Source: Marinitoga hydrogenitolerans DSM 16785
Lineage (GTDB): Bacteria; Thermotogota; Thermotogae; Petrotogales; Petrotogaceae
DNA length: 48,550 nucleotides
Assembly: GCF_900129175.1 (NCBI RefSeq)
Contig: NZ_FQUI01000005.1
Coordinates: 42,804-91,353, forward strand
Direction of reading: 5' to 3'
Under the pieces are notes generated by a model that made no database searches, had not been told where the DNA came from, and saw only the letters and a list, made by a program, of their open reading frames with translations. The position numbers and the translations under genes are program-made. Each line of letters begins with the position of its first letter. Positions within the stretch are counted from its first letter, which is position 1. Positions 36,779 through 39,485 of the stretch are shown here, piece after piece.

Positions 36779-36810
36779 AATTTTACCTCCTAAATGCATA
36801 TTTTAATACA

Positions 36811-36839
36811 ATTATACTTTAATAATGTTAATAATTCAA
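36811..36839 (-). promoter_or_regulatory. promoter of valS-folC-ruvA
   Basis: Minus strand TTGAAT (36839-36834), 17 bases, TATAAT (36816-36811). Confidence 0.85.
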
Positions 36840-36887
36840 GGGATTTTTTGATAAATTATAGAAAAAACAAATAGGGAGGTGAGGTAA

Positions 36888-37316
36888 ATTAAAAAGAAAA
36901 ATATTAAATATGCTTTTATTGTTATAATAACTTCAACCTTAGTAGTTATATTAACTCTAACATTTATATATATTTTTTATTTAAAAGATTTATTTCAAAT
37001 AAATCTTACTGATGAAGAGTATATAAATTTAACAAAAAATAGTTCATTTTTTGGATATCCAAATAAAAAAATTGGTCCATATTTTGATTCATTTTTTTCT
37101 AATACAAAATGGTATTGTGTGAGGAATTTAGGTAAAATTAATGTTGTATTTGAAGGTGATGCATATTACTTTGGTAAATTTGCAAGATTTAAAATAGTTT
37201 TTGATGTAAAAAAAATGATTAAAACAAAGACTATACAACCTGTTGAATATACAGCAGATAATGAAAAAATTTTGTATACAGATTTTCTTAATTTGATTAA
37301 TACAATATTTAAGTGA
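36888..37316 (+). CDS. membrane-anchored protein with apparent AUU start codon
   Basis: A 142-residue protein if read from ATT 36888. The in-frame codon just before is TAA, and no ATG, GTG or TTG follows until GTG 37119, so a canonical start would delete half the protein. GGGAGGT lies seven bases before the ATT, ideal spacing. The frame begins with a signal anchor: KKKNIKYA, then about 25 hydrophobic residues (FIVIITSTLVVILTLTFIYI). The rest is a soluble domain without known motif. AUU as start is rare, known best from infC. A single-base error in the sequence is the alternative. It leads the 37326 gene by 9 bases, as one unit. Confidence 0.75.
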   Translation: MKKKNIKYAFIVIITSTLVVILTLTFIYIFYLKDLFQINLTDEEYINLTKNSSFFGYPNKKIGPYFDSFFSNTKWYCVRNLGKINVVFEGDAYYFGKFARFKIVFDVKKMIKTKTIQPVEYTADNEKILYTDFLNLINTIFK

Positions 37317-37325
37317 GGTGAAAAC

Positions 37326-38126
37326 TTGATATACGAAAATTCTTTTAAAGAATTAAAAAAAATATCAATAGAATATTTTAATGAAAAAAAAGATAAGTTA
37401 GATGATGCATATGAACATTTAATAGCTTTTTCTATATTCGACATAAATAATAGATTTCCTAGCCTGAATTTATTTTTTGATAATAATGGAAGAAGTTTCC
37501 TTTCTTTAATGCCAGGTAAACCATCAATGTATATGAGTGCTTTATACCCAACAAAAATTGATAATAAAGAGATTGATATATTAAAAGAACGGTATTATAG
37601 GTTATCTAAAAAATATAATAAAAATGTCAATATAAATATAAATATGTCTATTTATCAATCACCATTAATAATTCCAAGTTTTTTTATTGAAGGAAATGAA
37701 AATATTATCAAAAAGTATATATTATCAGAAAAATTAAAAGGGGTAAAATACATATCTCTTAGTAAATATATTGATACAGTATTATTAGATTTTATTTTAA
37801 ACTCTTATAATACGTGGTATTTCCAGGGAGTATATTTATATTATACTTTAAATGAAGTTCATTTTGTTTTTGATATACCAAATGATTTTAATAATAAGAC
37901 TTTAGCTATTGAATTAGGTAAATTAACAAAATTATATGTAATAAGGAATAATCCTCTTTTGTCAGAATCATATAAAATTCCTGATATGAATATAAAGAAA
38001 CCTGTTTTAATGGTTCTGAAAACGAATGTATGGAATTTAAAAGAATTCGATTTAGAATATATAAGAAAAGATATTATTGATAAAATTAATAATTCCTATC
38101 AATGTGTTTTAAATGTGTTTAAATAA
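37326..38126 (+). CDS. hypothetical protein, 266 aa
   Basis: I recognise no family. The 266-residue product is soluble, without signal or membrane segments, and has an alternating helix-strand look (SFKELKKISIEYFNEKKDK at the start; YLYYTLNEVHFVFDIPND and IKKPVLMVLKTNVWNL later). It starts at TTG 37326, five bases after GAGGTGA. It is 9 bases after the AUU-start gene, so the two probably work together, perhaps at the inner membrane. A long palindromic terminator overlaps its stop. Confidence 0.7.
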   Translation: MIYENSFKELKKISIEYFNEKKDKLDDAYEHLIAFSIFDINNRFPSLNLFFDNNGRSFLSLMPGKPSMYMSALYPTKIDNKEIDILKERYYRLSKKYNKNVNININMSIYQSPLIIPSFFIEGNENIIKKYILSEKLKGVKYISLSKYIDTVLLDFILNSYNTWYFQGVYLYYTLNEVHFVFDIPNDFNNKTLAIELGKLTKLYVIRNNPLLSESYKIPDMNIKKPVLMVLKTNVWNLKEFDLEYIRKDIIDKINNSYQCVLNVFK

Positions 38127-38164
38127 ATATTTGAGGCACCCCAAGGTGCCTCAAATATTTATTT
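38121..38164. terminator. bidirectional terminator, 20-bp perfect stem
   Basis: Arms 38121-38140 and 38145-38164 pair perfectly around CCAA. It overlaps the stop codons of both convergent genes (38124-38126 and rplT at 38159-38161). Confidence 0.92.
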
Positions 38165-38754: not shown

Positions 38755-39279
38755 TTATTTTTGTTTTTTTGGAGATAAAATCATATCCATATCTCTTCCA
38801 GCCATTTTTGGTTCTCTGGTAACTTCAGCTATATCCTCAACGTTTTTAATAACTTTATTTAAGATTTCTTTTCCTTTATCTGTAAACATAATATCTCTAC
38901 CTAAAAACATAACAACAACTCTTACTTTATTACCATCTTCAAGGAACGTTCTAATTCTTCTAACTTTTGTGTTGAAATCATGATCATCGATTCTTAGTCT
39001 GAATTTCATTTCTTTCAATACTTGTTTTTTTTGCTTTTTCTTGGCTTCTTTTTCTCTTTTCTCTTTTTCGTATTTATATTTTCCAAAGTCCATTATTTTT
39101 GCTACTGGAGGATTGGAATTTGGGGAAACTAAAACTAAATCGAGTCCTTCTTGATATGCAATTTGTAAAGCTTTTTTTGTTTCCATAACCCCTAATTGTT
39201 CTCCAGAATTACCAATAACTCTAACTTCTCTAACTCTTATTTCTTCGTTTCTCAAAGTTGTATCTTTCGATCTCTTAAT
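38755..39279 (-). CDS. infC: translation initiation factor IF-3, AUU start
   Basis: IF3 keeps 30S subunits free and checks the start codon. The 174-residue product has the N domain (NEEIRVREVRVIG, ALQIAYQEGLDLVLVSPN, PPVAKIMDFGKYKYEK), a linker and the C domain (MKFRLRIDDHDFNTK, KVRVVVMFLGRDI, KMAGRDMDMILSP). I place the start at ATT 39279, seven bases after AGGAGG; upstream TTG 39312 has no site. An AUU start is the hallmark of infC in many bacteria, letting IF3 repress itself. Upstream is a leader with an attenuator-like hairpin. Confidence 0.94.
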   Translation of the reverse strand: MKRSKDTTLRNEEIRVREVRVIGNSGEQLGVMETKKALQIAYQEGLDLVLVSPNSNPPVAKIMDFGKYKYEKEKREKEAKKKQKKQVLKEMKFRLRIDDHDFNTKVRRIRTFLEDGNKVRVVVMFLGRDIMFTDKGKEILNKVIKNVEDIAEVTREPKMAGRDMDMILSPKKQK

Positions 39280-39389: not shown

Positions 39390-39485
39390 ATGTATTTCCC
39401 TTTAAATCACAACCCCTGACGGCATATTTACCCGAGGTGGGAAGCTACTGGGTGGCTTCCGCTTTACAATAAAATTTTGTAAACA
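39370..39485 (-). promoter_or_regulatory. structured leader upstream of infC (candidate L20-type leader)
   Basis: 116 bases without a frame between tRNA-Lys and the attenuator. Read leftward it has a TTTACAA/TTGTAAA stem, a GGAAGC/GCTTCC hairpin with CCACCC in it, a GC-rich part, then GGGTGG of the terminator. The CCACCC in the hairpin could pair with the GGGTGG of the terminator and so form an antiterminator. The position in front of infC-rpmI-rplT matches known L20 leaders, but I cannot show sequence homology. Confidence 0.5.

Follow-up and report, generated by a model that had tools for sequence, protein, structure and literature searches.

AUU, AUA and AUC start codons (here collectively AUH) are viewed as isolated curiosities of translation, and their standard case is infC, the gene for initiation factor 3 (IF3). 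In E. coli, Bacillus and most bacteria, infC starts with one of these codons and is autorepressed by IF3. The AUU start of E. coli pcnB is reported to limit poly(A) polymerase (Binns and Masters 2002, cited in PMC5601948). In Staphylococcus aureus, cvfC1 (AUU) and ccpN (AUA) carry extended Shine-Dalgarno sequences (SDs) and give about 10% of AUG reporter output in poor medium, and ccpN output changes with the medium (PMC13009471). In Streptomyces, IF3 represses sigR, which has a GTC start (PMC5472188).

Here we describe a gene of Marinitoga hydrogenitolerans with an AUU start, hereafter called the AUU gene, within a 48,550-nucleotide stretch of DNA (the window). Like infC, it joins AUU to a strong SD, and infC of the same genome also starts with AUU. 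Unlike infC, it does not encode IF3, and so has no self-evident feedback loop. Like pcnB, it is a gene other than infC with an AUU start that may keep expression low, but the protein is a different one, and pcnB is a single gene whereas Marinitoga has a gene class. In start architecture it resembles cvfC1 and ccpN, which also combine a genus-conserved AUU or AUA start with an extended SD; Staphylococcus has two such genes besides infC, found by profiling, whereas Marinitoga has about two dozen, predicted from sequence. For IF3 acting through the start codon on a gene other than infC, sigR is the direct precedent, although its start is GTC, its product is a sigma factor and its control was shown experimentally, whereas we infer that of the AUU gene. 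The precedents (infC, pcnB, sigR, cvfC1 and ccpN) are single genes. The genus-conserved AUH set reported below goes wider, and is more interesting than the AUU gene alone.

Results

The AUU gene lies between valS and infC (Table 1). Its frame is preceded by GGGAGGT (36874–36880), seven further bases and then ATT (36888–36890), and it runs to a TGA at 37314–37316, encoding 142 residues that begin IKKKNIKYAFIVIITSTLVVILTLTFIYIFYLKD. The bases GGTAA separate the extended SD, GGGAGGTGA, from the ATT. Downstream of it, the earliest in-frame ATG, GTG or TTG is GTG 37119, codon 78, which opens an ORF of 65 residues. Upstream, the sole candidate in the window is GTG 36879, which is shut off by TAA. 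An earlier note on this DNA had placed ATT 36888 right after an in-frame TAA and seven bases past GGGAGGT, and had counted 77 initial codons free of ATG, GTG and TTG; every one of these positions holds. Taking the 16S 3' end of a relative, G001 (GGATCACCTCCTTTCT), as the anti-SD tail, the near-perfect SD forms a duplex of -16.7 kcal/mol at an aligned spacing of 3, and the canonical starts of G001 show a modal aligned SD-to-start spacing of 2–3.

Table 1. Features of the AUU gene, infC and their surroundings, in window positions.
Feature	Position	Strand	Evidence or remark
AUU gene, 142-aa protein	36888..37316	+	translation; orthologues in 7/7 Marinitoga genomes; dN/dS; AlphaFold2
AUU start codon	36888..36890	+	ATT in 6 species, ATC in seventh
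Extended Shine-Dalgarno GGGAGGTGA of AUU gene	36874..36882	+	duplex with 16S tail
In-frame TAA abutting ATT of AUU gene	36885..36887	+	bars in-frame upstream start in window species
infC (IF3)	38755..39279	-	AUU start: AGGAGGG 39292-39286, ATT 39279-39277
Intergenic stretch valS/AUU gene	36808..36865		conserved in all 7 species
valS promoter TTGAAT-17-TATAAT	36839-36811	-	inside intergenic stretch
DUF4895 family gene (PF16236)	37326..38126	+	TTG start; own SD GAGGTGA overlapping AUU gene stop

Each of the seven Marinitoga species has an orthologue at the same location, divergent from valS. Six of their starts read GGGAGGTGAGGTAA-ATT, ATGGGGTGACCTAT-ATT, AGGGGGTGACATT-ATT, GGGGTGAAATAT-ATT, AAGGTGGTGATATT-ATT and TTGGGGGTGATGTT-ATT, and that of the most distant species reads AGGGGGTGATATT-ATC. 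The accompanying SDs range from -10.4 to -18.1 kcal/mol, with a spacing of 2–3 in 7/7 species. The N-terminal part is coding in its own right: between species, dN/dS is 0.12–0.33 for codons 1–76, indicating purifying selection, and 0.06–0.17 for the rest of the gene past codon 76. The signal anchor that the earlier note saw encoded from the ATT is a hydrophobic helix kept in every Marinitoga species (Kyte-Doolittle mean 2.6–3.2). Purifying selection in codons 1–76, together with the retained anchor, argues that the ORF is coding from the AUU onward.

Could the AUU be an artefact, or only apparent? A sequencing error in place of a true ATG, or a pseudogene, is vanishingly improbable: nothing speaks for either but the oddity of ATT itself, whereas six other assemblies have ATT or ATC at the site, and the uninterrupted frame shows purifying selection. 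Orthologues and dN/dS thus rule out both. The note had asked for the base call to be confirmed and had named an ATG on re-reading, or orthologues with an upstream ATG, as what would make the start ordinary; ATG is lacking at this site in the other species too, so the ATT call stands, and across the seven species we found only ATT or ATC there and no conserved canonical start, an outcome that favours AUU. It is also very improbable that translation begins at some other codon, with the anchor either unmade or made by frameshifting or readthrough. Candidates for such a codon do exist, namely GTG 37119 with its short ORF and, in three species where sequence alone leaves an alternative start conceivable, an in-frame GTG within the SD (G002, G005) or an in-frame ATG slightly upstream (G006). 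But the GTGs and the ATG are not common to the species and lack SDs of their own, and the region 5' of GTG 37119 is under purifying selection with its anchor kept. We therefore rejected the GTG inside the SD as the start, it being unconserved, without its own SD and, in the window, closed by TAA. By sequence comparison, AUU is the sole start that fits all seven species, and the ATT or ATC of the orthologues, the coding N-terminus and the lack of an ATG at this site in the other species together argue that it is real.

The product of the AUU gene is predicted to consist of a helix at residues ~3–32, the N-terminal signal anchor, and an alpha/beta domain at ~42–142 (AlphaFold2 with 7 sequences, pLDDT 85). 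Its sequence matched no Pfam or NCBIfam family and gave weak matches only in the PDB, where a search with the predicted fold returned nothing below E 0.001. Residues ~40–80 match the C-terminal region of a DUF2628 protein from Cytobacillus (hhalign probability 95%, over 41 columns only), while a family search left the DUF2628 domain itself undetected. The same residues also match repeats in ~330-aa proteins of other genera of the order Petrotogales (Thermotogota). Unlike the DUF2628 proteins of Bacillota and these repeat proteins, the AUU gene product has its signal anchor followed by just one domain. Within the family, searches outside Marinitoga found no full-length orthologue, only relatives at the level of the domain. 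The protein is predicted to be a small membrane-anchored alpha/beta domain, which probably faces outward given the N-terminal anchor.

Some 40 bp of the intergenic stretch that separates valS from the AUU gene are near-identical in all seven species. The stretch has imperfect dyad symmetry, TAATAATTCAA ... TTGATAAATTA around GGGATTTT, and besides holding the valS promoter it is possibly an operator. Presumably the putative promoter of the AUU gene is its TTATAG region, read on the plus strand. Downstream, the DUF4895 gene is probably co-transcribed with the AUU gene. This overlapping arrangement occurs in at least five Marinitoga species and is a Marinitoga-specific pairing: in other Petrotogaceae, DUF4895 stands behind a long gene resembling uvrC. 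In the most distant species, G004, no DUF4895 gene follows the AUU gene, which instead has a hairpin terminator directly 3' of it. An Rfam search around the AUU gene returned tRNAs only. On the minus strand, upstream of infC and between it and a tRNA cluster, a GC-rich segment at 39400–39470 (gcggaagccacccagtagcttcccacctcggg...) looks like structured RNA; it matched nothing in Rfam at threshold.

The other AUU start in the window belongs to infC, which reads GGAGGGATAAGT-ATT-AAG on the minus strand and was also picked out by a blind survey of the window for AUH starts. All seven Marinitoga species have ATT here. Across the order, 30/30 infC loci have ATT, ATA or ATC at or near the SD-matched place; some are ambiguous because ATG, GTG or TTG occurs in frame within the SD or next to it, and no clear canonical start with an SD of its own appeared among these loci. 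By lineage, infC starts with AUU in Marinitoga, whereas most other genera use AUA or AUC. As the earlier note described, the infC-rpmI-rplT operon converges on the AUU gene, ending at 38159, about 842 bases away. A special meaning of this closeness found no support. AUH starts occur at many places scattered over the genome, so such a gene need not lie near infC; regulation through it was rejected, and the proximity is probably irrelevant.

These scattered starts emerged from a survey of G001 that combined a codon model with an SD model and covered 2.40 of its 2.44 Mb. It took in 2148 genes with a minimum length of 60 aa, of which about 197 lacked a canonical start having an SD. In genes without a canonical SD-linked start, the SD-defined codon was AUH in 28/52; the background, measured at SD-like sites occurring by chance in genes that start normally, was 41/376 (p = 8.6e-12). 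Subtracting this background leaves an estimated ~25 predicted AUH genes, or about 1% of genes. A relaxed survey (SD at or below -8) gave 36/133 versus 189/1378 and was much noisier, so we use the strict figures. As a control, two Bacillota plasmids (32% and 42% GC; 430 genes) yielded 1/7 AUH, itself implausible, in a small sample. Recognised canonical starts in G001 are mostly ATG (1602/1917), which makes the AUH state gene-specific and persistent. Other genes of G001 with AUH starts include TetR-like, ArsR-like, HAD-like, MOSC-like and flippase-like ones.

AUH families have stronger SDs than ATG genes (median -14.6 versus -11.7, p = 6e-4), a difference somewhat inflated by the first selection of these families for SD strength in G001. 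In this they resemble the extended SDs of the Staphylococcus AUU and AUA starts (PMC13009471).

We followed nine AUH families across the genus, naming the proteins from recognisable N-terminal sequences. The start is AUH in 7/7 species for CinA (six ATT, one ATA), MutS (a mix of ATC, ATT and ATA), an ABC transporter family, a nitronate-monooxygenase-like protein and a YigZ-like protein; the cinA query had a partly guessed C-terminal part, but the true N-terminal sequence was used to read the start codons. FolK, CheB and ThiG each have AUH in 5/5, and a glycerate-kinase-like protein in 6/7, the seventh being ATG. Counting infC as a tenth family, 63/64 loci are AUH, and with the AUU gene 70/71. 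The AUU gene is thus, by this sequence survey, a member of a Marinitoga-wide class of AUH-start genes that the earlier note had overlooked.

The third base of these start codons varies freely among T, A and C, with at least 14 changes against one involving AUG by rough parsimony. At neutral third positions G has a frequency of only 6.6%, so this pattern is no proof that AUG is excluded. It is compatible with free drift, and selection against AUG does not follow from it alone; active exclusion of AUG from AUH genes was accordingly set aside as unsupported.

Is there a dedicated tRNA for these starts? Over the 98% of G001 scanned, the initiator tRNA is ordinary, with a CAU anticodon and the standard GGG/CCC, and no tRNA was found that would pair with AUH as an initiator. 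Since the CAU tRNAs found in that 98% were all ordinary, we rejected a special tRNA, whether initiator or isoleucine. At 2079953–2080706 of G001, a block of tRNA-Leu, initiator tRNA-Met and tRNA-Met is tandemly duplicated.

Discussion

We conclude that the AUU gene is very probably a genuine gene translated from AUU, and one of an estimated 25 or so AUH genes (~1%). In the mechanism we propose, the one established for infC, the extended SD GGGAGGTGA would hold the 30S subunit and put AUU in the P site, where the ordinary CAU initiator tRNA could pair with only two of its three bases, making initiation weak. IF3 would then reject the AUU complex, so that output would be low and set by the balance of IF3 and 30S. 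Weak AUH starts of this kind would probably serve to keep low-abundance proteins low, as in E. coli pcnB.

How far IF3 acts as a regulator here is a separate matter. The start codon of the AUU gene is of the kind that IF3 discriminates against, and the known behaviour of IF3 at AUU starts, with the precedents of infC, sigR, cvfC1 and ccpN, makes it plausible that the gene is an IF3 target; weak output and IF3 sensitivity are what we infer from these parallels. A bolder proposal is that the AUH genes form a co-regulated set that rises together as IF3 falls, thereby signalling an imbalance of ribosomes and initiation factors. We think this rather unlikely. It would accord with the AUU start of infC in 7/7 Marinitoga species, with the repression of Streptomyces sigR by IF3 through its GTC start (PMC5472188), with the medium-dependent output of the AUA gene ccpN in Staphylococcus (PMC13009471), and with the retention of AUH in 70/71 loci while ATG prevails among recognised canonical starts. 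The set nevertheless lacks an evident common function (MutS, FolK, ThiG, CheB, transporters), and a low-output setting accounts for the same pattern. Were there a start-codon regulon after all, a doubtful prospect, at least some 25 genes with AUH starts and reinforced SDs would have their joint output tuned by free IF3/30S; its members would then, just as tentatively, be genes for mismatch repair, a chemotaxis methylesterase, folate and thiamine enzymes and transporters, along with the AUU gene and infC.

If the proposed class of weak AUH starts is real, its consequences reach beyond a single gene. Gene finders would systematically miss real genes, shorten them or misplace their N-termini. For individual genes, start-codon strength would set the level of expression in a lasting way, and IF3 may regulate many genes. 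The Marinitoga AUH list would offer natural AUH starts for testing how start codons are selected in a thermophilic lineage that is distant from the standard model organisms.
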